Below are positions 5,769 through 30,702 of a stretch of 57,326 bases of DNA, in pieces. The notes below the pieces were generated by a model, which worked only from the letters and a program-made list of their open reading frames with translations, ran no database searches and had not been told where the DNA came from. A program made the translations under genes and the position numbers. Source of the stretch: Candidatus Rifleibacterium amylolyticum (GTDB lineage Bacteria; Muiribacteriota; Ozemobacteria; Ozemobacterales; Ozemobacteraceae); assembly GCA_009917695.1 (NCBI GenBank), contig JAACJG010000021.1:1-57326 (forward strand), given 5' to 3'. How positions within the stretch are numbered: position 1 is the stretch's first letter; the number at the start of each line of letters is the position of its first letter.

Positions 5769-6599
5769 TTACTTTTTCTGCAGGAAAACGGCGCGGGGTT
5801 CGAGGTGAATTTCGCTGAAAAGATTGCCGAGATCACCAGCGGTTTCAGTCGAGCCGATAAGGAGATAGCCGTGCGGTTGCAGATGCCGGGAAACCCGGTT
5901 AAACAATTCAGTCCGCGGTTCCGATGCGAAATAGATAGCCACGTTGCGGCAGACGATGAGATCGAAAGAGTCAGGCAGCATAAATGGCCGATGTAACGGC
6001 ATCTGTACGAAAGAAAGTGACTCTTTCAAACTGTCTTTAACCTTCCAGTTCCTGGAATTGGTTTCAAAAAAGCGCTCAAGCAGGGCGGGCGGAACTCCCC
6101 GTTCGACTTCGAACCGGTTATAAGAACCCTGTCTGGCAGATTCTATAGCCATCCGTGAAATGTCTGTGCCCATGATCTGGTATTCTTTCGGCGATACCCC
6201 CATTTCCTGGAGAACCATCGCCAGGCTGTAAGCCTCCTGGCCGGTAGAGCAGGCAGCGCTCCAGATTTTCAACCGGCGCTTTTCAGCGCTGCGCCGACAT
6301 TGTTCAAGCAGGCGCGGAAAAACGGTTTTGCGCAAAGCCTCAAATGGCGCCAAATCACGAAAGAACGAGGTTTCCTTTGTCGTTATGTGATCGATGAGTT
6401 CTTCTCTGAGATCGTTTCGTTCCGGCTCGCGCGCCATAAAATAGAGATGGCTGTAATTCGAACACTTGAATTTTTTGAGAAGCCCGTGAAATCTTTCAAT
6501 AATCAGATATTCTTTGTCTTCAGTCAAACTGATGCCGGTCAGTTCTGACAAAAACTGACTCCACAGAGCAAATTCGTTGCTGTCCAGTTTATCTTTCAA
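5769..6599 (-). CDS. cheR: chemoreceptor methyltransferase CheR
   Basis: The protein transfers methyl groups from S-adenosylmethionine to glutamates of chemoreceptors. An N-terminal helical CheR domain (LTEDKEYLIIERFHGLL) is followed by the Rossmann methyltransferase domain. That domain carries TTKETSFFRD, the SAM loop WSAACSTGQEAYSLAM, the acidic GTDIS segment and FDLIVCRNVAIYF, all CheR signatures. No ATG is available. TTG at 6599 lies 4 bases after the cheB stop with AAAAGGG upstream and is preferred over a TTG at 6644 inside cheB. It is the last gene of the operon. Length (276 residues) is normal. Confidence 0.92.
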   Translation of the reverse strand: MKDKLDSNEFALWSQFLSELTGISLTEDKEYLIIERFHGLLKKFKCSNYSHLYFMAREPERNDLREELIDHITTKETSFFRDLAPFEALRKTVFPRLLEQCRRSAEKRRLKIWSAACSTGQEAYSLAMVLQEMGVSPKEYQIMGTDISRMAIESARQGSYNRFEVERGVPPALLERFFETNSRNWKVKDSLKESLSFVQMPLHRPFMLPDSFDLIVCRNVAIYFASEPRTELFNRVSRHLQPHGYLLIGSTETAGDLGNLFSEIHLEPRAVFLQKK

Positions 6600-6603
6600 A
6601 TTT

Positions 6604-7719
6604 TCACACGACCCTTTTGGGCAGACGTTGAATTGCTGAGGCAATTCCGCTCAAAGACAGCACTTCATCGGCCAGCCCGGCTTCAACTACCGCGCGAGGC
6701 ATACCATATACCACGCAGGACTGAGCATCCTGCGCCACGATATAACCGCCAGCAGAGCGAACCAGACGAGCGCCGGCAAGACCGTCGGTGCCCATTCCTG
6801 TCATCATGAACAGCCCGACACGCCCTGAGAAATTGGCTACAACCGATCTTAGAAGGTAATCAACCGATGGTCGGCAGTTATTCTCCGGCGGGTCATCAGT
6901 CAGGCGCAACACAAAACTGCCGGGGTTACTTCCTCTGATCAGCTTCAGATGTTCACCTCCCGGCGCCAGATAGATATGCCCCGGCTCCAGCGGCATCCAG
7001 TCTTTAGCCTCTTCTACCCACAAACCGGAGCGCTCTCTGATACTGGCTGCCAATGCTTCAGAAAAAAACCTGGGAATGTGCTGAACAATTATAACGGGCA
7101 CGGACAAAGGCTCTTTGATCACCGAAAACACTTCGGCAAGAGCCGGCGGGCCACCAGTGGAAATGCCGATGACTATCAGCTCGATGCTTCTGCCAGAAGG
7201 ACTCTTTACGGTCGCGCCAACCGTGATATTATGAGCAGCAGACTTTGCCGCGGAGGCCGAAGAATCAGCAGCACCACCAATATTCATACTGCTGCGAATA
7301 CGCAGGCTTTCGATAAGAGCCTGAACAGCCAGTTTAAAGTCTGATTCCAGTCGCTGTCTGGTTTCTTCTATCGTTTCAGCCTCAGGCTTGAGGACAAACT
7401 CAAAGGCGCCGGCGCTGAGGGCTTTCATAGTCAACAGACTCATATTGGGAGAAGCTGCGCTGACAACGATAACCCGGCAGGCGAGTTTAAGTTCGCGCAA
7501 CTGTCTGAGAACTTCGAGACCGCTCATATCCTGCAGTTTCATGTCGAGAATCATCAGATCGGGCCCAAGAGCCTGAGCTTTCTGAATGGCGATCTTACCG
7601 TTAGGAGCCTGGCCAACAAGTTCAACTCCTTCGATTTCGAGCAACAGATCACCGATTATCTTGCGAAAAACCAGCGAACTATCGACAACCATGGTGCGCA
7701 AAACCTTATGAGCTTTCAT
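6604..7719 (-). CDS. cheB: chemotaxis protein-glutamate methylesterase CheB
   Basis: This 371-residue, two-domain protein starts with a receiver domain (about 5-125; VVDSS with D13, phospho-acceptor D59 in LMILDMKLQDMSG, and KPE near 113). A linker of Ser/Ala residues leads to the CheB catalytic domain (about 180-365). The domain shows the nucleophile motif GISTGGPPAL, the His motif IVQHIPRFF and the Asp motif TGMGTDGLAGA, so the Ser-His-Asp triad is intact. It removes methyl groups from, or deamidates, the receptor encoded two genes upstream. Its ATG overlaps the stop of the cheW-like gene by one base (TAATG), so translation is probably coupled. Confidence 0.95.
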   Translation of the reverse strand: MKAHKVLRTMVVDSSLVFRKIIGDLLLEIEGVELVGQAPNGKIAIQKAQALGPDLMILDMKLQDMSGLEVLRQLRELKLACRVIVVSAASPNMSLLTMKALSAGAFEFVLKPEAETIEETRQRLESDFKLAVQALIESLRIRSSMNIGGAADSSASAAKSAAHNITVGATVKSPSGRSIELIVIGISTGGPPALAEVFSVIKEPLSVPVIIVQHIPRFFSEALAASIRERSGLWVEEAKDWMPLEPGHIYLAPGGEHLKLIRGSNPGSFVLRLTDDPPENNCRPSVDYLLRSVVANFSGRVGLFMMTGMGTDGLAGARLVRSAGGYIVAQDAQSCVVYGMPRAVVEAGLADEVLSLSGIASAIQRLPKRVV

Positions 7720-8204
7720 TACAGGTCTCCAGCCACATCACGCGAACCCAGCAATTCATCGAGTTTCAGCAAGCCGGTCATTTTGCCATCAAGAAAGAAA
7801 AAACCGGTTACTACCCTCGAAAAAGCTTTTGGCAGATTTTCGGGACTGGCAGTCATCTGGTCTGGCGAAAACGGAAAAATGCCGATCAGGTTGTCAACCA
7901 GCATTCCCACAAGCTCTGTACCTGATTGAACAACAAGAATACGAGTATCGGCATCGAGTATCTGAGCGTTCAGCCCAAGTTTAACCGCGGGATCGATAAC
8001 TGCGATAACCCGGCCACGCAGGTTGAACACGCCTCTGACATAATCGGGAGCATGATGAACCGGTCTTATTTCTGGTGGGGCCAGAACTTCCTGAATCGGG
8101 CCGGCGGGAATGCCGAGCATGTTTCCGCCTATACTGCAGATGACGACGAGCTGGCCCTCGTCCTCGAGAAGGCTTCCTGACGCCAGTTTCATGAAGGAAG
8201 TCAT
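7719..8204 (-). CDS. cheW: CheW-like coupling protein
   Basis: This 161-residue, single-domain protein has the CheW pattern. The first subdomain contains FGIPAGPIQEVL-like spacing (LGIPAGPIQEVL). The conserved VRGVFNLRGRVIAVIDPAVKLGL segment begins near residue 57, followed by DTRILVVQ and LVGMLVDNLIGI. It should link the receptor to CheA. The start overlaps the receptor stop by one base (TGATG). The N-terminal ten residues are extra compared with minimal CheW. Confidence 0.88.
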   Translation of the reverse strand: MTSFMKLASGSLLEDEGQLVVICSIGGNMLGIPAGPIQEVLAPPEIRPVHHAPDYVRGVFNLRGRVIAVIDPAVKLGLNAQILDADTRILVVQSGTELVGMLVDNLIGIFPFSPDQMTASPENLPKAFSRVVTGFFFLDGKMTGLLKLDELLGSRDVAGDL

Positions 8205-11008
8205 CAGATTTTGAACTTTCCTACCATCGAGCGCAGCTGTTCAGCCAGTTTTGACAGTTCGCGGGCACTGGCGAAGACCTGCTGGCTCGAATTGGTAACC
8301 TCGTTAGAAGCAGAATTGACACGGGCAACGTCTTTGGCCACTTCCTGCGTACCAAGGGCTATTTCGGCCATGCGCACGTTCACGCCCCGGATTCCACTGG
8401 AAGCATCTGAAATACTGCTCGAAATACTGCGAGTCACGCTTGCCTGCTGTTCGATACTGCTGGCAATGGCTGCAATGATGTCGCTGACTTCTTTGATAAT
8501 CTTGCCGATATTCTCGATATCGCCAATGGCGTTTACCGTTACATCCTGAATTCCCGCAATTTTTTTGCGAATGTCAATAGTAGCGGTAGCGGTCTGTTGA
8601 GCCAGTTCTTTAACTTCGTTGGCGACAACCGCAAAGCCTTTGCCGGCTGTGCCGGCACGGGCAGCCTCGATGGTGGCGTTGAGCGCCAGCAGATTAGTCT
8701 GCGATGAAATGCTGGTAATGGTTTCGGTCACCTGACCGATTTCCTGTGCTGACTTTTCCATGGCTTTGATTATCTCAGAGACCCCACTCGCCTGATTACT
8801 GGCGTTCTGCGCGATGCGCCGCGCTTTTTCAGAGTTGGCGGCAATATCGCTGATAGTAACGCTCATCTCTTCGGTAGCAGTGGCGACGGTAGTAAGATTC
8901 ATGGTTGTCTGCTCCATGCTCGATGCCACCGAGACCGTGTTCGAGCTCATCTGCTCGACTGCTGACGCTACCAGCGCTGAGCGATCAGAAGAATCGCGCG
9001 AACTTGAGGCAAGCTGCTCAGAAATTGTCGACAGCTCGGTCGATGAAGATGCCAGAGTATGAACACCGTCGTTCAGCTGCCTGAACATCTGTATAAGCTG
9101 ATTCACCATCATTGCAATTGCCTGCATCTGCTGATCCTGGGCCGAACGCTCGCGCACTTCGACGAGCAGATCGCCCGCAGCTATTCTCTGGGCAACCGCA
9201 GTGACTCCACACAGCGACTCGATCAGGTTGTTGATGCTGTCTTTGAGCACATTGAACTGACCGTGAAAGTCTTCGCTGACTTTTGCTGGAATCTCGCCAC
9301 GACTTAGTCTTTCGATATTGCTCGAAACCATTACTACCGGGCGTGATATCGCTTCGAGAATGTTGTTCATCTCCTGCACCAGCCGGGCAAATTCGCCACG
9401 GTTTCGGCTGATATCGCAGCGCACCGTCAGATTGCCTTCGAGCGCGGCCCGGGTGAGGGTGCGACTATCTTTGATCAGGCTCTCGATCGAATGTTTGACC
9501 TCATCCAGATTCTTGAATATTTTCTGAAAGAGCTCATAAACGGGGCGGGCAGCCTGATCCGGTTCGGCTATATCCCAGTTCCAGTCGATATTGCCTTCGG
9601 CCAGAGTCTGCAGGCAACCGGCAAGTTTGCCGAGTTCCTGGTTCTGATACTGGAACACCCGGTTCGAATCGTGAGTAAGCGCTTCGATTTCGCCGCGCGC
9701 CTGCTCAGCTTTTTTCAGCAAATAATGATGACAGTTCTCAACCCGGTTCAGGTTGTTATAAATAGCTGTAGCCATCATTTCGCATTTGCCATAGCCGCAT
9801 GAATTGCAGTTAAACAAGTCTTTTTCGTCGTGTTTTTCCATCTGACGATAGATATTCTGCAGCTCTGACTCGCTCGGAGTGCGAATAATGTTGGTCTTAG
9901 TGCGATTTTCATAGTTGCGCGCATAGAGTCCCGGCTTCCAGAAACGGTTCACCAGCTTTTCAATGCCTTTGCGGGTTCGATAGCTGGACATCGGACCACG
10001 ACGACGGTGTTTCTGCTGCATTCTCTGGCTGCGTTCTTCAACGAGACGTTCGATCTGGTCAGGCGAGCTGTTTTTGGCATCAGTGCCAGTACCGCCATTG
10101 CAGCCCAGTTCGCAGTTAAGACAATCAACCAGCAGTGGTGCTTTCTTTTCGAGCCGCAGACGATCAAGGTTGCCAAGATAATCGTAGATCAGATGCGGGC
10201 CCTCAATTTTACGGGTAATTTTGTTGACATCAGGGTTCCAGCGTTCGGCCGTTCTAAGCAGCCCACCCGGCGTTGAAAAGAGAACAGCACGCTCAGCTGG
10301 CGGATTGTCATAATCGACTTCGGGGAAAGTGGCGAGGCGAATATTCTCATTCTCAAGCCATTCGCGCAAGTTTGCCATGGTAATGTTGTAATCGCCAAGA
10401 CCGGTCTGTGCGAACTCACGCTTCTTGGCGATACAGGGCGAAAGCACTGCTATCTTATGACCGGCAAACTGCGGCCAGTATTCACGAATAAGTTTTATCG
10501 TATGCAGCATCGGGCTGTCAGCCGGAGCCAGCGAAGGGATCAGTTCGGGATGATAAATTTCGGCATAATTGACAAGCGCCGGACAAGGCTGGGCGATGAC
10601 CAGATCCGGCTTGTTCTTTTCGATGTGGTCGAGATACGACTTTATAGTAAGCTCAGCACCAAAACTGACGTCGAATATAGCTGCAACACCGCGTGCCTTA
10701 AGCCAGCCATTAAGCCGCAGATATTCATTCGGAAAAGATACAGCGACTGCTGGAGCGACAATCGCGATCATCGGTTCGCGCCGGGACAGAGCTTCGACAA
10801 AACTGACAGTATCATCAACCGGCCGACGCGCATCATGAGAACAGGCTTTCAGGCACTGCCCACAGCCGATACACATCTCACTGTTGATCTCCACTGTATC
10901 GCCGGAAGCGTCGTTACAGAACTTTACCGGGCAAGCAGCAATGCAGGCATGGCAATTGACACATTTATCCTTGATGACTTCAACAACTTTCGGCAATGGG
11001 CGCAACAT
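8204..11008 (-). CDS. soluble chemoreceptor: ferredoxin + [FeFe]-hydrogenase H-domain + FeS + HAMP + MCP
   Basis: This 934-residue fusion begins with two [4Fe-4S] motifs (C16[12 protein letters not shown]46[10 protein letters not shown]). A large-subunit [FeFe]-hydrogenase domain follows (about 80-310). Its H-cluster motifs are altered: L1 is AQPCPALV (C142 kept, the preceding proton-relay Cys replaced by Pro), L2 is SPCIAKKRE (C192) and L3 is NCELGCNGG (C299, C303). A CxxCGxGxC cluster domain lies at 401-426. HAMP-like helices follow (about 490-630) and then a methyl-accepting signalling hairpin whose tip contains [19 protein letters not shown]. There is no membrane segment. Substituted L1 is typical of sensory HydS-type proteins, so it probably senses H2 or redox state rather than turning over H2. 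The gene is coupled to cheA and cheW. Confidence 0.93.
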
Positions 11009-14000
11009 CAGATTTTCTCCCGGTAGTTAGATTCTCTTATCGGCTCGAGGCCGGTTGGCAGTGCTGAATTCAGCCATTCAGCCAGATTCTGGTTTTCAAG
11101 TTTCTGAAACACTTCGACTATTCCCTCTGTGGTCAGATCGTTATCGCAGTCTTTAAAGCTGTTACGTAGGGCAACCACCCTGGTGCCATTGAGCTTTTTC
11201 TCTGCCCGCAACCGACGGATGTTGGCAAAATTATCGCGCTGCAAAACTCTGGCGTCGGCCATCAGAGCTTTGTAACCAACCTCAGCTGCCAGACAATCAT
11301 CTATTTCTCGCCACGATCGCACCAGCTTCACGGCATAGCCATGATTTTCCAACTGTAAACGCAGCTGGTTACTGAAATAATCAGAGGGCTCCAGTACCAG
11401 TAATTCAGGTGCTCTTTCATTTGTATAAGCTGACTCGTGACTGAAATCGAGCAGCTCAGGCCGTTGTCTGGCCAGAATTTCCCATATATCGACAAACAAT
11501 ACCGATTTACTGCCCCATGCCATCGAACCACCAATGCCGGGCTGACGTAAAACCGTATTATCGACAGCCGGGTTGAGTTCTATCACCTGTATGGGCAGAG
11601 CGGCAATCAGACCGATTTCGCGATCGCGCACGCGAATTACAATGACACCGCATTCCTGATCGTTACGCAGCGGTTCAATATCAGTGATATCGCTGACCAT
11701 GAAAACCGGCAGAATCTTATCGCCATGCTGAATTGCCTTCCAGCCGCCACATGCAACAATTTCCCGCAACTGCACTTTTTCGAGACGGTCAACCAGAAAC
11801 AGAGGCAAGACCAGAGTTTGCGGGCCACCATAACGGAACGCCAGAAAAGGCACAGTATCTGCATCCAGACGACTGTCGACAGTTGTTTCGACCATGGCAG
11901 TACTTATGGTATGCTGCTGCCCCATTATATTGGCCCGGGTTGCCAGTCCAAATACATCAATAATAAGAGCGATGCGGCCGTCGCCCATAATAGTGGCGCC
12001 AGAATATTCAGCCAGCCCCTTTAGATCGCTGCCAAGCTGTTTTACGACAATTTCTTCGGTAAACAGAGGCTTATCGACAACAATACCGTATGAAAAGCTG
12101 CCGGTAGTTACGATAACCACGTTAATATCACTTGCAGCGTGGTAACGCCGACCGTTTTCGCGTTGAGGCAGATCGCTGACATCCGGCTTGCTTATCACTC
12201 CATTCGACTGGTAATGTGGCGACCGACGGTCGGCCAGTCGCCGTCTTCGATCGCGCTTTTCCTTACCACTCTCACTGTCTGAAAAATTACGTTCGCCACC
12301 CAGAAAACTGTTGAGCGAAATCAATGGCAACAACTTGCCTCGAAGAACCAGCACCTCCTGATCACCGATTACTTCGATTTTACGTTTTACCATCTCAGCC
12401 GGTATCATCAGCATTTCAACCACGTTAAGCTGCGGGATCGCGAAGATTTCGCCACTCGTAGAAAGGATGAGCGAGGGAATAATGGCCAGAGTAAGCGGCA
12501 GTTTTATGCGAAAAGAAGAACCTCGCCCAAGCTCAGATATGATTTCGACCTTGCCGCCAAGACTGTCGATATTGGCCTTGACGACATCCATACCAACGCC
12601 ACGACCGGAAAGTTCTGATACTTTTTCAGCTGTCGAAAGTCCGGGCATAAATACAAGATTCTGTTTTTCTTTACTAGAAAGGCTGCGAGCCTTCTCGAGC
12701 GCAAGCAGGCCACGTTCGACCGCCTTGGCGCAAACCTTGTCACCATCGATACCACGACCGTCATCGCTGACTTCGATAATTACGCGACTTGCCTCATAAA
12801 ATGCCTGAATCTTGATGCGCGCCGGGTTGCTCTTTCCAATAGCCTGCCTTTCCTGTGGCGCCTCGACACCATGATCGACAGCATTGCGAACCATGTGAGT
12901 AAGGGGATCTCCGAGACCTTCAATCAAAGCCTTGTCGAGTTCGACTTCGCGACCTTCCATGGTCAGGCTAATTTCCTTACCAAGCTGGCGCGAGAGATCA
13001 CGAATCATGCGCGGAAATTTGGAAAAGACGCGATCGAGTGGTTGCAGGCGCGTCATCATAATGGTTTCCTGCAGTTCGGTGGTAACCTGACCCATGCGCT
13101 GGCCGCTGATGCGTATCGCCCGCATATCGTTGCGATTCAAGCCTTCGCGCAGTTGATTGCGGCTCAAAACCAGTTCTCCGGCCAGATTCATGAGGTCTTC
13201 AAGCAGACTGACCTTAACCCGCAGAGTCGGCTCTGACTTTTCTTCGACCTGAACCGGTAAAATACCGTTTGATGCAGGCAAAGCAAGCGACTGTGCCATT
13301 GCGGCAGAGTCAATATCCTCGTTTTGATTGTCAGAAACAGATTTCTCTGCCTGGCTTTCCAGCTTATAAAAAACTCTGGCCGGCACTTCCAGCATGTCAG
13401 CCAGCTCTTCCGCTTCCATCTCTGAGTAATAGACGAACTCAAACGGCAACCGGTAAGCATTAGCGCTTGCCGATTCTTCAAAAGCTGCAAAATCAAACTC
13501 GCAAAGCACAAGTGTGCCAAACGAATCGAGATATTTAAAAAAATCGCAGAGAGATTTGTCCTGCTCATCGATGTCTTTGACCAGATCGATTCGGCCGAAA
13601 AAAACTTTCCAGCCGCTGCTTTGCGCATCAGCGATCTCCTGCCATGGCAGAGAAAATAGAGTCGGCTGTGCCCGACCGGCAACAGCTGAAGATTCGGCCT
13701 TTGGCGTTTTAACCGTTTCGAGGATCTCATCGAGCTGATTACAGACAGCCGAAATGTCGATCTCGTTGCTGTTTGCCGAATGATCAATGAGATAACGCAG
13801 TCGGTCAAAACTGCTCAGCAGCAGATCGATCAGATCGGCTGAAATGCTGATCTGACAAGATCTTATCGAGTCAAGCAACCACTCGATTCGGTGTGACAAT
13901 TCATGAATTCGAGTGAAGCCGAACATGCCACTCGATCCTTTGATCGAATGTGCAGCACGAAACACCTGGTTGATAATGCCGGCTTTTTCGTCAGTTGACG

Positions 14001-14124
14001 CCGTTTCGAGCTGGAGAAGAAGAGGTTCGATACCTTCGAGGTGTTCGATAGATTCTGCCAGATAGCACTGCAGCAGTTCACTGCCATCGCCCTTGATATA
14101 AGGATTATCGTTCACGTTGCTCAA
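11008..14124 (-). CDS. cheA: CheA-type histidine kinase with two CheW domains and a C-terminal receiver-like domain
   Basis: This 1038-residue kinase carries an HPt domain (phospho-His H59 in [15 protein letters not shown]). A P2-like region lies at about 165-260 and a dimerisation helix pair at about 300-365. The ATPase has an N-box MVRNAVDHG at 411, DDGRGID at 454 and GRGVGMD at 507. The first CheW domain (about 550-720) is interrupted by a very basic, charged insert ([15 protein letters not shown]). A second CheW-like domain lies at about 745-880. The tail (about 905-1030) looks like a receiver with an aligned Asp (LMADARVL) but a changed acidic pocket (LVLEPSD). The start is TTG, overlapping the cheY stop by 4 bases; GTG at 14115 is an alternative. 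Confidence 0.93.
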
Positions 14125-14480
14125 TCGAGGTATTTTTTTACGGTCGTCAAAACGCGTTCTGGATGTAACGGCTTAACTATAAACGTTTTGGCACCAGCTT
14201 CAACAGCGGCCTTCACTTTGTTACTCTGCCCAAGCGCAGAACACATAATGATCTTGGCCTTGGCATCGAGCTTGAGTATTTCTTTTACTGCTGTTATGCC
14301 ATCCATGTCGGGCATGGTGATGTCCATGGTCACGAGATCGGGCTTGAAGGTCTGGTATTTCTGAACCGCCTCTTCACCTGTTTCTGCTTCAAGAACAGTA
14401 TAGTGGTAGCTTTCGAAAAGCTGCTTCAAAGTCATACGCACAACCGAAGCATCATCGACCACCAGAATTTTTTTACCCAT
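14121..14480 (-). CDS. cheY: single-domain response regulator CheY
   Basis: This 119-residue receiver domain has the full active site: D9/D10 in LVVDDASVVR, phospho-acceptor D53 in VTMDITMPDMDG, the switch Ser/Thr in IMCSALGQ and Lys103 in FIVKPLHPER. It has no output domain, so it should be the diffusible phosphorylated product of the adjacent CheA. It is translationally coupled to cheA (TTGA overlap). Confidence 0.92.
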   Translation of the reverse strand: MGKKILVVDDASVVRMTLKQLFESYHYTVLEAETGEEAVQKYQTFKPDLVTMDITMPDMDGITAVKEILKLDAKAKIIMCSALGQSNKVKAAVEAGAKTFIVKPLHPERVLTTVKKYLD

Positions 14481-14561
14481 GATCCTGCCTCATTTCCATC
14501 TGAATCTATCTGCCAACTTGAATTATACGAGACTATTATATCAGAAAAATAAAGCCATTGC

Positions 14562-15032
14562 CTATTTGATCTGTGCTCGACTGTCGAATTTAACTACCAG
14601 CTTGAGTTCGCCCCAATCGAATTCGAATTTGCCGACAAAACAGGCGCTGGCCGTAGAATATTCTTTGCCACGAGTGACTGCAGGCACAGTAATTTCGCAA
14701 TCGAGGCCCATTTCCAAAAGACGCTTGCTGGCTTCACCTGCGATCATATTGGAAAGTTCGCCGATGGCACTTTCGACCAGGCGGTCGTAAGCGGTTATCG
14801 ACTTGCCTCCCAGAGTTACCGATGCGGCCTTGAAAGCCACCGCTTCATCCATCAGGATAAAGAACTGGCCCTTGAAGCCACCCGCAACACCAAGACCGAC
14901 GCTGACAGGAGCAGGCAAGCTGCACCCATCTGGGAAGTAGGTCAAGTCCGTCTTGAGCATACTGACATTGTTGACCTGTCCAAAAACGCTTGAAGTCGCG
15001 CGAACGAACTGATTAACTATCTGAGAGTCCAT
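14562..15032 (-). CDS. cheX: CheX-like CheY-P phosphatase
   Basis: This 156-residue protein fits the CheC/CheX/FliY family. The signature ESAIGELSNMIAGEA (about residues 87-101) supplies the catalytic Glu and Asn that act on phospho-CheY. An N-terminal region VNQFVRATSSVFGQV and the central sheet segment GGFKGQFFILM also fit CheX. It is the first gene of the chemosensory operon and would end the signal by removing phosphate from the next gene's product. A clear sigma-70 promoter was not found in the 155 bases upstream. Confidence 0.85.
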   Translation of the reverse strand: MDSQIVNQFVRATSSVFGQVNNVSMLKTDLTYFPDGCSLPAPVSVGLGVAGGFKGQFFILMDEAVAFKAASVTLGGKSITAYDRLVESAIGELSNMIAGEASKRLLEMGLDCEITVPAVTRGKEYSTASACFVGKFEFDWGELKLVVKFDSRAQIK

Positions 15033-24023: not shown

Positions 24024-25466
24024 TTATTCTTCTTCTTCCTGAATCGGCGGGTCGTCGAATTTGGGCAGAATCGGTGGTTCTTTGGAGGGTTCGGGTTCTT
24101 TAACCTCGAACTTGCCAATCACCTTGAATACCGCGCAATCTTCGCCATCATCGTCTTTGCCGCATTCAGCCGAAATATCATCACCTTTGCTGAAAGAGCC
24201 GGTGAGAATCGATTCAGCCAGCGGATTTTCGATGTAGCGATGAATGGTGCGGCGCAACGGGCGGGCTCCGTATTTGAGATCGGTTCCTTTGTCAACCAGA
24301 AAGGTTTCCATCTCTTCGGTGAAACCCAGGCGCATATTCAAGCCAGAAACGCGGTCGGTTACTTCCTGGAGCAGAATCTTCAGAATCTGGCGGTTGTCGT
24401 TCTTGTCGAGCGCTCTGAAGACGATGATATCATCGATACGGTTGAGAAATTCGGGTGGGAACTTCTTTTCGAGGCTCTTGCGCGTAATTTTGGATTTCTT
24501 CTCATGCGAAAGATCATCGAGTTTTTCAGTCGTCTTGTTGGCCGAATCTTCGACTCTGAAGCCAGGTCGGCTTTCTTCGCTGGTGATATCAGAGACACCG
24601 ATATTGGTTGTCAGAATTATGACACATTCACGAAAGCTGACAGTTTCGCCCTTGCTGTCGGTGAGAATGCCTTCGTCGAGAAGCTGCAGGAGCAAATTGT
24701 GCACCTTTTCGTGCGCCTTTTCGATTTCGTCAAACACAACAACGCCATTCGGCTTGTTCTTAACTGATTCGGTCAGATAACCGCCTTCATTATGGCCGAT
24801 GTATCCTGGAGGCGCACCAATAAGCTTGGCATATTCATGGCTCATGGCAAATTCTGAGCAGTCGATGCGCACGAGATCGTTTTCGCTGCCAGTCATGAAT
24901 TCGCACAAAGCTTTGGCGAGCTCGGTTTTACCAACACCGGTCTGCCCGACAAAAACAAAGCTGCCAACCGGGCGTTTCGGGTTCTTGAGACCGACGCGCG
25001 CTTTTCTTATGGCCTGAGCAACTGCGGTTACCGCTTCATCCTGACCGATAATACGTTTGCGCAGGTGCTTCTCGATTTCCATATAGCGCTGCTGCGCCGA
25101 TTTGGCTTCGTCAGATTCGGCACCAAGCATGGTGATAGCACCGCTTTTGGCAGTCTGCTCATCGACCTGGATGGTTACTTCCTTGATATCGAGAGACGGA
25201 TTAACCTTGATACAAAGGTTAAAAAGCTCCTGCTCGATGATTTCACCGAGGAGCGGGTATTCATTGTTTCCGAAAACCAGGGGAGCGATCTCATCGAGAT
25301 AATTTACCACTGAAGCGTTTATAATAAGCCGCTTGTATGACTTTTTGTCGGTTATCTTGATGTTTTTGAAAAGCTGCTGCTTCTGCTCCGGAGTGAATGA
25401 TCTAATTGCAACAAAGCGGTCTAAAGATTCACAGAACTTCATCTTGATTCCGGGCGTGGAATCCAT
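24024..25466 (-). CDS. single-AAA+ ClpB/ClpC-like ATPase
   Basis: This 480-residue protein resembles only the second half of ClpA/B/C proteins. A distinct N-terminal region (about 1-145) is followed by one AAA+ module. That module has Walker A GQTGVGKTE (about 178-186), the pore-type segment APPGYIGHNEGG, Walker B VVVFDEIEKAH and sensor TTNIG. It also has the ClpB-type C-terminal subdomain (LKYGARPLRRTIHRYIENPL). The first AAA module and the Clp_N repeats are absent, and about 35 charged residues are inserted before the arginine finger region. The tail is Pro/Glu-rich. The start at 25466 is set by AGGAGGG. It likely remodels proteins; partnership with ClpP is uncertain. Confidence 0.88.
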   Translation of the reverse strand: MDSTPGIKMKFCESLDRFVAIRSFTPEQKQQLFKNIKITDKKSYKRLIINASVVNYLDEIAPLVFGNNEYPLLGEIIEQELFNLCIKVNPSLDIKEVTIQVDEQTAKSGAITMLGAESDEAKSAQQRYMEIEKHLRKRIIGQDEAVTAVAQAIRKARVGLKNPKRPVGSFVFVGQTGVGKTELAKALCEFMTGSENDLVRIDCSEFAMSHEYAKLIGAPPGYIGHNEGGYLTESVKNKPNGVVVFDEIEKAHEKVHNLLLQLLDEGILTDSKGETVSFRECVIILTTNIGVSDITSEESRPGFRVEDSANKTTEKLDDLSHEKKSKITRKSLEKKFPPEFLNRIDDIIVFRALDKNDNRQILKILLQEVTDRVSGLNMRLGFTEEMETFLVDKGTDLKYGARPLRRTIHRYIENPLAESILTGSFSKGDDISAECGKDDDGEDCAVFKVIGKFEVKEPEPSKEPPILPKFDDPPIQEEEE

Positions 25467-25470
25467 GAGA

Positions 25471-25484
25471 ACCCTCCTGAGGGT
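25471..25484 (-). promoter_or_regulatory. hairpin that overlaps the ribosome site of the Clp-like gene
   Basis: On the minus strand ACCCTCAGGAGGGT can fold so that ACCCT pairs with AGGGT and the AGGAGGG ribosome site is buried. A hairpin of this kind next to a chaperone-type ATPase could act as a simple RNA thermometer. The stem is only five pairs long, so chance is not excluded. Confidence 0.3.
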
Positions 25485-25495
25485 ACGTTTTGCCA

Positions 25496-25525
25496 TTGAC
25501 AAGCAAGTGCACAATGGGGTATAGG
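25496..25525 (+). promoter_or_regulatory. possible promoter of the TPR gene
   Basis: A perfect TTGACA and a TATAGG are separated by 18 bases. The expected start of transcription is about 35 bases before the TPR start codon. Confidence 0.5.
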
Positions 25526-25527
25526 GT

Positions 25528-25556
25528 ATTGTATCACCAACCCTTGCGTAAGGCAA
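25528..25556 (-). promoter_or_regulatory. possible promoter of the Clp-like gene
   Basis: On the minus strand TTGCCT and TACAAT are 17 bases apart, and the -10 matches 5 of 6. The leader to the ATG would be about 55 bases and contains the hairpin over the ribosome site. Confidence 0.4.
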
Positions 25557-27001: not shown

Positions 27002-30000
27002 ATGGACCAGGCGGCGTTTAAAAAGAGTTTTCCTGCTTTTCCGACCAGCGAAGAAGCGATCGAAAAGCTATGCCGCATGCTCATCAACGAAAACATCGTC
27101 AATCATGCAATCTGGGAAGAACTGACAACCGCGAATCCAGACCCGGCCGACTTTATTGCGGCGCTGGCTTCTCTGGATGCAATAACCGAAGAGATTCTCG
27201 CGACCAAAGAGGCCGAGATCCTCAACGTACCTTATATAAAGATTGACGAGATCGACATTCCGCAAGATGCTTTCAAACTCATCGATATCAAGTTCATCAA
27301 AGAGCGCCGCATCATTCCCGTTAAAATAAACGGCGCCGAGCTTATTGTCGGCACTGTCGAGCCCGGCAACAGCACAATACTTGTCGGCACCAATGCCACT
27401 CTGGCACTTCGTCCCGCCAAAGTTCTCGGTGAAGCTCTCGACAACAAAATAGCTCAAAAAAGCGGCGAAAAGCAGACAAAAACGAACAAGGGGCCACGCA
27501 AAAGGCTTGGCGACATTCTCGTCGAATCAAAATACTGCACAAATGAGCAGCTCAACGACGCAATTCAGGGCGCAAAGAATGACAAGATCCGCCTCGGCGC
27601 CTACCTGGTAAAACACGGAATCCTTACCAACAAACAGCTTTCAATTGCCCTTTCCAAGCAATTCAACATTCCTTTTGTCGATCTCGACGAAAGCCTTGTC
27701 GATCCGGTGCTCGCGACTCTGCTGCCGAAGAAACTCTGTCACGAACAGATCATGTGCCCGGTCAAGCGCGAGAACAACAAACTGGTTCTGGCAATGACCG
27801 ACCCCACTGACATTATCACCATAGACCATGTTGAAATGATGACAGGGATGCGTGTTTCTCCAGTTGTCAGCTCTGAGCTTTCCATTCTCTCAGCCCTGGG
27901 AAACCTCTACGGCGAGAACATCGACGCTCTGGCCGACAACATAGGCAGCGAAAGTGGTGGCGGCGACGACGATGGATTAGACATGGGCGAGAATGACGCT
28001 CCGATCATCAAGCTGGTCAACCTGATTCTGACCCAGGCAGTCAACATGAACGTATCAGATATTCATGTCGAAATTTACGAACATGAACTGCGCATCAGAT
28101 TCAGACTCGACGGCATAATGAAACTTTTCATGACACCAGCTCGAGCCGCACACGCAGGTGTGGTCAGCCGCATCAAGGTCATGGCCAACCTCGACATCGC
28201 AGAGACCCGCCGCCCGCAAGATGGGCGCATCAAACTCAACATGCAGAACCGCAAGATTGACTTGCGCGTTTCCTGTATTCCCTGCATCTGGGGTGAAAAA
28301 ATCGTCATGCGTATCTGCGACCAGGGCAATCTCAGAGTTGACCTTGGCGACCTCGGCTTTGAGCCTTTCGTTCTCGAAAAATTCATGGAAGGCGTAAAAT
28401 GCTCGAACGGTATCGTTCTGGTTACCGGACCTACCGGCTCAGGCAAGACGACAACCCTCTATTCATCCCTATTCCTATTGAACAATCCATCGATCAATAT
28501 CATGACCGCAGAAGACCCGGTTGAATACAACCTCATGGGCATCAACCAGGTGCAATGCCACCCTGACATTGGCCTCGACTTTTCGGCAGCCCTGCGCTCG
28601 TTCCTACGCCAGGACCCTGATGTAATAATGCTTGGTGAAATTCGTGACTTCGAGACTGCTTCGATCGCTATCAAGGCGGCAATGACCGGCCACCTCGTAA
28701 TTTCGACTCTGCATACCAATGATGCCCCGGCAACTGTTGCGCGTTTGCTCAACATGGGCATAGAACCATTCAGTCTCTCGACCTCTCTGCGCATCGTTCA
28801 GGCACAGCGACTGGTCAAGAAGGTCTGTAAGACCTGCGCCCAGGAATACAAGGCCGACAAAGACCTGCTGCTGTCTCTTGGCATAGATGCCCGCCTGCTC
28901 AAAAAGCTGCACCTCGACGAAAAGTATAAGATAGACAACCTGATGTTCCGCAAAGGAACCGGATGCCCTGACTGTGACAATGTCGGCCTCAAAGGGCGCC
29001 AGGGTATTTATGAAGTTCTCACCATGACACAGAAATTCCGCGAACTGATCGAAAACAAGGCCAACACTGAAGAAATGCGGCGCCAGGCGCTTGCTGACGG
29101 CATGCTGTCACTGCGCGAATCGGCTCTTTACAAACTGATCACAGGCGTCACTTCGGTTCAGGAAGTTTTTAATACAACTGTTGATGCCGGTGGCGACGAT
29201 AAGACCGAAGAAGAAAAGAAGCCAAAAATGGCCGAAGAATCTTCGACCAAGATTTTCATGCCAATCACTGCCCCCCCCATGGCAACAAGCGGCGTTGCTG
29301 TTGCTGATGGCGGCTCGATCAGCAATCTGTCACGCGAGCTGCATGAATTCACCAGTATGCTGGCGAAGGTTTCCGGCGTCAGTGAATCTCCGGCAGCAGC
29401 TACAGCCGCAATCAACAAAGAAATTCTCAAACACAACATAGTGGCGCCGCTTGAACAGATTCGTGCGCAGGCAGGAAAATCTGATCAGGCCGATAAAGTT
29501 CTGCCGCTGATTCAGGCGCAGGGCCAGAAAATGGACTATAACGTGCGAAATCTGATTTCGCACCTCGCCGACATCAAGCCAAAACTGGCGAAAATGCAGC
29601 TCAACCAGCTCGTTGAAAAAGAAATTTTTGCCGGACTCAAAAATCATGTTGTCACTGCCCGGCTTATTTCGGGCATCAAAGACATAGGTAAAAATCTGAA
29701 GGTTTCAAAAAGCCTGCCCACAGACCTGCCGCCGGTAGAGATTGACCCTGAGTCATTTGCCACAATTGCCAGCAACCTGTTTATCAATGCCCTGATCGGC
29801 CTTGGCAGCAAAGGCGGCGAAATCAAGGTTGTTACCCGGCTCAAGCCCAAAACTACCGATCGTGTCGAATTCATAATTTTCGACAGCGGCAAAGGCATTC
29901 CGGTCGAGCAACAGGCCAGCCTTTTCACGCCTTTCTCGTCTTCCGACAAGTCATCGCTTGGTCTTGGACTTGCCGTGAGCAAAAAGCTGGTATCTCTGTG

Positions 30001-30076
30001 TCATGGCGATATCAGCATAAAAAGTACACCTGACACCAGCACCCTGGTTACCGTCGAACTGCCGGCGGCAACCTGA
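27002..30076 (+). CDS. PilB/GspE-like secretion ATPase fused to a histidine-kinase-like module
   Basis: This 1024-residue fusion has two MshEN-type N-terminal domains (about 60-150; 165-300, with RLGDILVESKYCTNEQL). The GspE/PilB ATPase follows at about 335-715. It has the Asp box DIHVEIYEHELRIRFRLDG, Walker A GPTGSGKTT (about 479), Walker B VIMLGEIRD (about 538), the His box STLHTND and a zinc site CKTC/CPDC. After a linker (about 715-790) comes an H-box-like LKHNIVAPLEQI (H811) and a HATPase domain (N-box SNLFINAL about 921, FDSGKGIP about 960, SLGLGLAVSKKL about 982). The ATPase powers pilus or type II secretion assembly. The C-terminal module suggests regulation by phosphorylation or nucleotide binding. 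Confidence 0.92.
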   Translation: MDQAAFKKSFPAFPTSEEAIEKLCRMLINENIVNHAIWEELTTANPDPADFIAALASLDAITEEILATKEAEILNVPYIKIDEIDIPQDAFKLIDIKFIKERRIIPVKINGAELIVGTVEPGNSTILVGTNATLALRPAKVLGEALDNKIAQKSGEKQTKTNKGPRKRLGDILVESKYCTNEQLNDAIQGAKNDKIRLGAYLVKHGILTNKQLSIALSKQFNIPFVDLDESLVDPVLATLLPKKLCHEQIMCPVKRENNKLVLAMTDPTDIITIDHVEMMTGMRVSPVVSSELSILSALGNLYGENIDALADNIGSESGGGDDDGLDMGENDAPIIKLVNLILTQAVNMNVSDIHVEIYEHELRIRFRLDGIMKLFMTPARAAHAGVVSRIKVMANLDIAETRRPQDGRIKLNMQNRKIDLRVSCIPCIWGEKIVMRICDQGNLRVDLGDLGFEPFVLEKFMEGVKCSNGIVLVTGPTGSGKTTTLYSSLFLLNNPSINIMTAEDPVEYNLMGINQVQCHPDIGLDFSAALRSFLRQDPDVIMLGEIRDFETASIAIKAAMTGHLVISTLHTNDAPATVARLLNMGIEPFSLSTSLRIVQAQRLVKKVCKTCAQEYKADKDLLLSLGIDARLLKKLHLDEKYKIDNLMFRKGTGCPDCDNVGLKGRQGIYEVLTMTQKFRELIENKANTEEMRRQALADGMLSLRESALYKLITGVTSVQEVFNTTVDAGGDDKTEEEKKPKMAEESSTKIFMPITAPPMATSGVAVADGGSISNLSRELHEFTSMLAKVSGVSESPAAATAAINKEILKHNIVAPLEQIRAQAGKSDQADKVLPLIQAQGQKMDYNVRNLISHLADIKPKLAKMQLNQLVEKEIFAGLKNHVVTARLISGIKDIGKNLKVSKSLPTDLPPVEIDPESFATIASNLFINALIGLGSKGGEIKVVTRLKPKTTDRVEFIIFDSGKGIPVEQQASLFTPFSSSDKSSLGLGLAVSKKLVSLCHGDISIKSTPDTSTLVTVELPAAT

Positions 30077-30126: not shown

Positions 30127-30702
30127 GTGAAAAAATCCGCATATATTCTTGTAACCGTCCTGCTGCTGACAATGCCATTCATCGCCAATGCCAACGAGAT
30201 CATACTGGCAAATCTGTCAGATAAGTTCGGCCAGATCAGCCATCGCGATCTCGAAACTCATCAGGAATTCGTATTTTCAGGTGAATTCACTGATATCGAA
30301 CACGCCCTCAATCTTGCCAATTCCAACGATATGTATGTGCAGTATGCCTCGGTCAGCGCCAGAGAAGACGGCAAAGCCGCCATTATCATAAGAGTCAGCC
30401 CGACGCGTAACGATGCCAGCCGCCATTTTGCCACTTTCAGCAATATTCTCAGGCCTGGCATGTTTACCTGGAAATCAGGAAAAGTGCCCGAAAACATGGC
30501 AGTTTTAACTACCGTCGAAACCAGTTTTGATAATTCTGTATCATTACAGGGACTCACCCTCAAAAGCAGTCTGATCTTTTCGCATCTGTTTCCGCTGATC
30601 GAGCGCACCGGTGAACTGAGAGACCCGTTTTTCTCAAGGGGTTCTTATTCAGATACCAAAGCCGGCCGGGTCATGGATTTCACTGTTCTCTGCCAGTGGT
30701 AA
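30127..30702 (+). CDS. exported protein of unknown function
   Basis: This 191-residue protein has a signal peptide (about 1-22, ending ANA). The start is GTG with GGGGG upstream. The mature part is mixed alpha/beta with no cysteine pair before the last residues (TVLCQW) and no known motif. It lies 50 bases after the PilB-kinase gene and 17 bases before the pseudouridine synthase gene, so it may belong to the same transcript. I do not recognise it. Confidence 0.65.
   Translation: MKKSAYILVTVLLLTMPFIANANEIILANLSDKFGQISHRDLETHQEFVFSGEFTDIEHALNLANSNDMYVQYASVSAREDGKAAIIIRVSPTRNDASRHFATFSNILRPGMFTWKSGKVPENMAVLTTVETSFDNSVSLQGLTLKSSLIFSHLFPLIERTGELRDPFFSRGSYSDTKAGRVMDFTVLCQW

Follow-up and report, generated by a model that had tools for sequence, protein, structure and literature searches.

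A PilB-type motor ATPase joined to a histidine-kinase-derived C-terminus in Candidatus Rifleibacterium amylolyticum and related bacteria

The DNA analysed here, a stretch of 57,326 nucleotides of contig JAACJG010000021.1 of Candidatus Rifleibacterium amylolyticum (hereafter the window), encodes a protein in which a PilB-type motor ATPase continues, within one open reading frame of 1,024 codons with zero internal stops, into a C-terminus resembling a histidine kinase (Table 1). We consider this protein to be, more likely than not, a second PilB-type extension motor, the C-terminus of which is an NtrB/ZraS-type transmitter (DHp + CA) that has turned into a regulatory pseudo-kinase. The original prediction, that a PilB continues into a kinase-like C-terminus, is borne out by the succession of a PilB, a predicted DHp hairpin and a HATPase_c domain, and the N, G1, F and G2 boxes and His811 all lie where it had placed them; its proposal of phosphorylation from within the motor fared less well, as described below.

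Table 1. Features of the fusion gene and of its two conserved neighbours, in window coordinates.
Feature	Residues	Position	Strand	Remarks
ClpB-D2-like AAA protein		24024..25556	-	divergent neighbour, conserved with the fusion
TPR-repeat protein	472 aa	25567..26985	+	16 bases upstream of the fusion
PilB-pseudo-histidine-kinase fusion gene (putative)	1,024 aa	27002..30076	+	single ORF
Extra N-terminal region	1-160	27002..27481	+	family mean pairwise identity 0.44
MshEN-type c-di-GMP motif pair	168-220	27503..27661	+	motif from PMC5013675
MshEN domain	221-305	27662..27916	+	Pfam
T2SSE/PilB motor ATPase domain	330-727	27989..29182	+	profile and structure matches
Walker A GPTGSGKTT	476-484	28427..28453	+	
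Walker-B region RQDPDVIMLGEIRDFETA	536-553	28607..28660	+	GEIRD
Zinc tetracysteine	Cys609, Cys612, Cys655, Cys658	28826..28975	+	
Linker	728-770	29183..29311	+	variable, low-confidence
Helix SRELHEF...	771-792	29312..29377	+	precedes hairpin
DHp-like helical hairpin (predicted)	806-855	29417..29566	+	profile comparison, structure prediction
His811	811	29432..29434	+	codon CAC; aligns with ZraS phosphoacceptor His
CA domain (HATPase_c, GHKL)	899-1023	29696..30070	+	Pfam match 915-1023
N-box Asn929	929	29786..29788	+	
G1 box DSGKGIP	961-967	29882..29902	+	
F box LFTPF	974-978	29921..29935	+	
G2 box GLGLAV	987-992	29960..29977	+	

That the motor ATPase is complete, with intact Walker and zinc motifs, was also part of the original prediction and is confirmed by a TIGR02538 score of 678.5 bits (equivalog cut-off 675.65 bits), by a T2SSE match in Pfam over residues 330-723 (1.7e-131), and by a Walker A motif, Asp box, Walker B motif, His box and four cysteines that vary little or not at all among the fused proteins. 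The motor core has ~52% identity to the solved PilB of Geobacter (5tsh/5zfr), and the protein shares with PilB (TIGR02538) the MshEN and T2SSE core and all motor motifs, whilst differing in its additional N-terminal region, its kinase-derived C-terminus of ~300 residues and the loss of a Gln from c-di-GMP motif I. Two MshEN stretches are matched in Pfam, one of them presumably within residues 1-160. MshEN domains that bind c-di-GMP contain two RLGxx...LxxxLxxQ motifs (PMC5013675); the fusion has the same kind of N-terminal control domain as is regulated by c-di-GMP in MshE and PilB, but with one half of the motif pair altered in every fused protein in which it is covered, motif II being intact and the Gln of motif I replaced by Ala or Ser (Gly in one protein). 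Motif I also lacks its Gly in families f1 and f7. The fusion protein nonetheless scores 49.9 with the NF053729 profile (cut-off 38), and the motif I Gln is retained in the canonical PilBs of loci L002, L029 and L032. To judge from these residues, c-di-GMP input through the MshEN part of the fusion appears weakened.

A canonical pilB-pilT pair is also present in the genome, with the fusion encoded apart from it: on contig C6 the canonical pilB is accompanied by a pilT-like gene and by a gene identified by eye as prepilin-peptidase-like. The genome has several PilC-like genes in other places, some of them away from any listed motor gene, and no PilC platform or other pilus gene adjoins the fusion in the neighbourhoods compared. 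Separately, PilB-like proteins of ~1,175 aa with a C-terminal extension of ~600 residues, for which there were zero Pfam matches, are encoded at L058:9689-13207 (on the same contig C6) and L055:3730-7269, and frames of similar length occur in several genomes of the family.

A survey of genomes, proposed with the original prediction, located the fusion in 20 of the 23 other genomes of the window's family, at 57-87% identity; two of these copies are fragments at contig edges that still span the junction between the PilB and kinase-like parts, and the three genomes without it are 64-70% complete. Absence of the fusion from relatives, one of the two observations named beforehand as telling against it, is contradicted by this distribution. 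Nothing was found in favour of a sequencing or assembly error or a chance joining, and recurrence of the uninterrupted frame in 20 further genomes rules these out. Two further families of the same phylum, Riflebacteria, encode PilB proteins of ~980-1,070 aa with a weaker version of the C-terminus, namely f3 (4/4 genomes) and f7 (3/3, although one copy runs off its contig with its C-terminus unseen). No fusion was present among the matches listed for families f2, f4, f5, f6 and f8, or among those listed in a limited survey of sampled genomes from other phyla, where in one search four candidates were scored per genome and the best were listed; of seven loci fetched from other phyla, the motor-motif frame was recovered in five, all without a C-terminal extension.

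In a tree of the motor region a single branch (94/81) separates all fused proteins from the others, with the canonical PilB of the phylum next to them. Taken with the replacement of the motif I Gln that the fused proteins share, which also points to one origin, this topology favours a single fusion event, although it does not prove one since long branches, of which the program warned, connect the two groups of fused proteins. The fusion is old within part of the phylum. We found no description of a PilB-kinase fusion in the open-access literature, most subscription journals lying outside this coverage.

The closest profiles to the C-terminus are those of HisKA-type kinases (AtoS, ZraS, NtrB) and not those of Ser kinases. 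HATPase_c is matched in Pfam (2.9e-18 at residues 915-1023 of the fusion) in all 21 family members, so that one of the two domains originally suggested for residues 790-1024 was recovered; the other, HisKA, was matched in 0/21, the DHp-like region being detected via profile comparison with kinase structures and structure prediction only. AlphaFold2, run on the alignment of the 21 C-termini (pLDDT 83.5), returned a helix, a hairpin of two helices (806-824/827-855) and a CA fold, and in a Foldseek comparison this model matched whole DHp + CA kinase cores, that of HK853 first (TMq 0.70) and also that of DivL. The C-terminus is thus predicted to form a DHp hairpin followed by a CA fold; the full-length model was poor (pLDDT 68.8, pTM 0.32), and the arrangement of the domains cannot be placed from it. 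Relative to NtrB/ZraS/AtoS-type HisKA kinases (ZraS 9jfj, HK853 5uht), the fusion has the same predicted DHp + CA fold and the same N, G1, F and G2 boxes, but it lacks a conserved acceptor His, the H-box Glu/Asp and a sensor domain, and is joined to a motor ATPase.

The ATP site is closely conserved. Asn929, Asp961, Gly987 and Gly989 do not vary among the 27 fused proteins whose C-terminus is complete. Within the window's family (21 proteins) both G1 glycines and Phe978 are invariant, the four boxes as a whole are invariant or nearly so, and Glu779 and Phe783 of the helix preceding the hairpin show no variation either. Family f3 has lost the G1 glycines and the F box, family f7 has an altered F box, and because parts of these boxes are missing, ATP binding may be dispensable in the two families. 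Pairwise dN/dS values, which are rough because dS approaches saturation in many of the comparisons, are mostly 0.04-0.17 for the hairpin and CA domain, reach 0.29 in one adjoining segment, and are 0.14-0.59 for the linker, the highest among the C-terminal segments in most pairs. These substitution patterns indicate that the hairpin and the CA domain are under purifying selection, which argues against a decayed, non-functional tail; with the same frame in 20 other genomes, decay or an assembly or sequencing error becomes an explanation with next to no probability.

The question of phosphorylation turns on His811. In the family profile its column aligns with the phosphoacceptor His of ZraS, and the register is that of an H-box, with a Pro at +5; ordinary kinases of the same genome have HEIRNPL or HEINNPL at this position. 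The H-box-like segment put forward in the original prediction is therefore present as an alignable position, but its His is not a family character: the column reads H4 S4 Q4 A3 K3 N2 M1 over the 21 members, which rules out His811 as a conserved phosphosite. The second residue of a typical H-box is Glu or Asp; here it is Asn in 18 of the 21 members, and Asn, Ser or His overall. No His is invariant anywhere in the C-terminal part of the 21 proteins, H882 being kept in 16/21 and H854 in 15/21, which leaves no other invariant His as acceptor. The four sequences with His811, from four species, form one clade within the genus (support 100/99), and the simplest history to be read from the tree is a recent gain in this clade, for example from Asn AAC to His CAC by one base; retention with many losses could also account for the distribution.

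These observations bear directly on the possibility that the motor contains an active histidine kinase, which would autophosphorylate His811 and either pass the phosphate to a response regulator or change the motor by it. The register of His811, the intact ATP boxes and the presence of this His in four species of the genus all fit such an enzyme, and autophosphorylation is possible in the window's own species because His811 is present there. Against it stand the 17 of 21 members without the His, the confinement of the His to one recent clade, the failure of every member to match HisKA, the unsuitable residue at H+1 and the lack of a response regulator conserved nearby, and for these reasons we regard an active kinase as an unlikely account of the fusion. 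Phosphorylation from within the motor is accordingly not supported for the family; what stands of the original idea is control from within the motor, in that the fusion is conserved, under selection and of kinase-transmitter origin.

The loss of the acceptor leaves other roles for the C-terminus to be weighed. GHKL kinases of the SpoIIAB and PDK types phosphorylate another residue or another protein, and the GHKL domain of the fusion could similarly act in trans, with the motor itself, the TPR protein or some pilus protein as its substrate and no acceptor His of its own. Invariant ATP-site residues, which a purely structural role would not demand, speak for this reading; however, there is no substrate candidate, the nearest profiles are HisKA-type, and the G1 and F boxes are degraded in f3 and f7, so that it too seems improbable to us. 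The same degradation, and the retention of the hairpin without the catalytic residue, would fit a C-terminus that is mainly a structural clamp, in which DHp-like hairpins hold subunits, or several motors, to one another and the fold is stabilised by bound ATP, but the conservation of all four boxes across the window's family (21 members) would then be left unexplained, and we give this clamp little credence.

The gene order ClpB-like/TPR/fusion is fixed in the genomes of the family wherever the contig reaches, the TPR gene keeping its order and strand relative to the fusion wherever the contig allows, and two f3 genomes (L049, L050) likewise have a ClpB-like gene beside the fusion. The evident candidate for a partner of the fusion is the TPR protein. 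A check for linked response regulators, of the kind suggested with the original prediction, drew a blank: none is conserved adjacent to the fusion in the family neighbourhoods compared. The chemosensory cluster at 5.7-15 kb was considered as a functional associate of the fusion and rejected, since it was not found in the corresponding place in the relatives examined; one of these has a different che cluster in the region. Within this cheR-cheB-cheW-MCP-cheA-cheX cluster (5772-15032) lies a receptor gene (8207-11026, - strand) whose product joins ferredoxin and iron-only-hydrogenase large-subunit domains to HAMP and MCP domains, possibly a hydrogenase-type sensor feeding chemotaxis. Downstream of the fusion, a conserved gene (30127-30702) has a signal-peptide-like start and zero Pfam matches, its weak matches in several relatives lying within much larger frames at the equivalent position. 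In f3, a gene encoding a protein-kinase domain joined to an FGE-sulfatase domain (L049:3574-5382) adjoins the fusion gene.

The closest precedent for the pseudo-kinase reading that we prefer is DivL of Caulobacter (4q20), whose DHp + CA core lacks the acceptor His and receives a phosphorylated regulator, with no kinase or phosphatase activity (PMC4211667). The predicted structure of the fusion's C-terminus matches that of DivL, and the acceptor His is likewise replaced in 17 of 21 family members, the window's own clade being the exception. The two proteins differ in their attached parts, PAS sensors in DivL, which binds DivK~P, and a pilus motor in the fusion, and in that DivL binds ATP weakly, whereas the ATP site of the fusion looks intact. 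Because the fold and the ATP site are conserved while the acceptor His is not, and by analogy with DivL, we infer that the C-terminus serves as an allosteric control module of the motor, without conserved autophosphorylation. The hairpins would bring adjacent subunits of the hexameric motor together in pairs, and motor activity or localisation would be set allosterically through binding of ATP or ADP to the CA domain, through a partner that docks on the hairpin, be it the TPR protein or a response regulator, or through both; the kinase-derived part would, as in DivL, receive signals and send no phosphate. Several points temper this pseudo-kinase model: the window's own protein has His811, albeit as a member of a single clade, and could be a working kinase here; the intact-looking ATP site, unlike the poor ATP binding of DivL, could mean that some catalytic act is still performed; the box losses in f3 and f7 suggest that ATP may be dispensable in those families; and the full-length model is poor.

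Known control of PilB involves separate proteins and c-di-GMP (PilZ, FimX, MshEN; PMC11656802, PMC5013675), whereas a covalently attached two-component module would tie the reception of a signal to the motor itself. More speculatively, and with a chance that we put as low, a phosphorylated response regulator might dock on the hairpin of the pseudo-kinase within the hexameric motor, thereby switching extension directly, in which case the usual flow from kinase to regulator would be reversed inside a mechanical enzyme. Since it combines a preserved ATP pocket with the lack of an acceptor His, the fusion is a clear test case for the function of pseudo-histidine kinases, and its recurrent TPR partner offers a concrete starting point.
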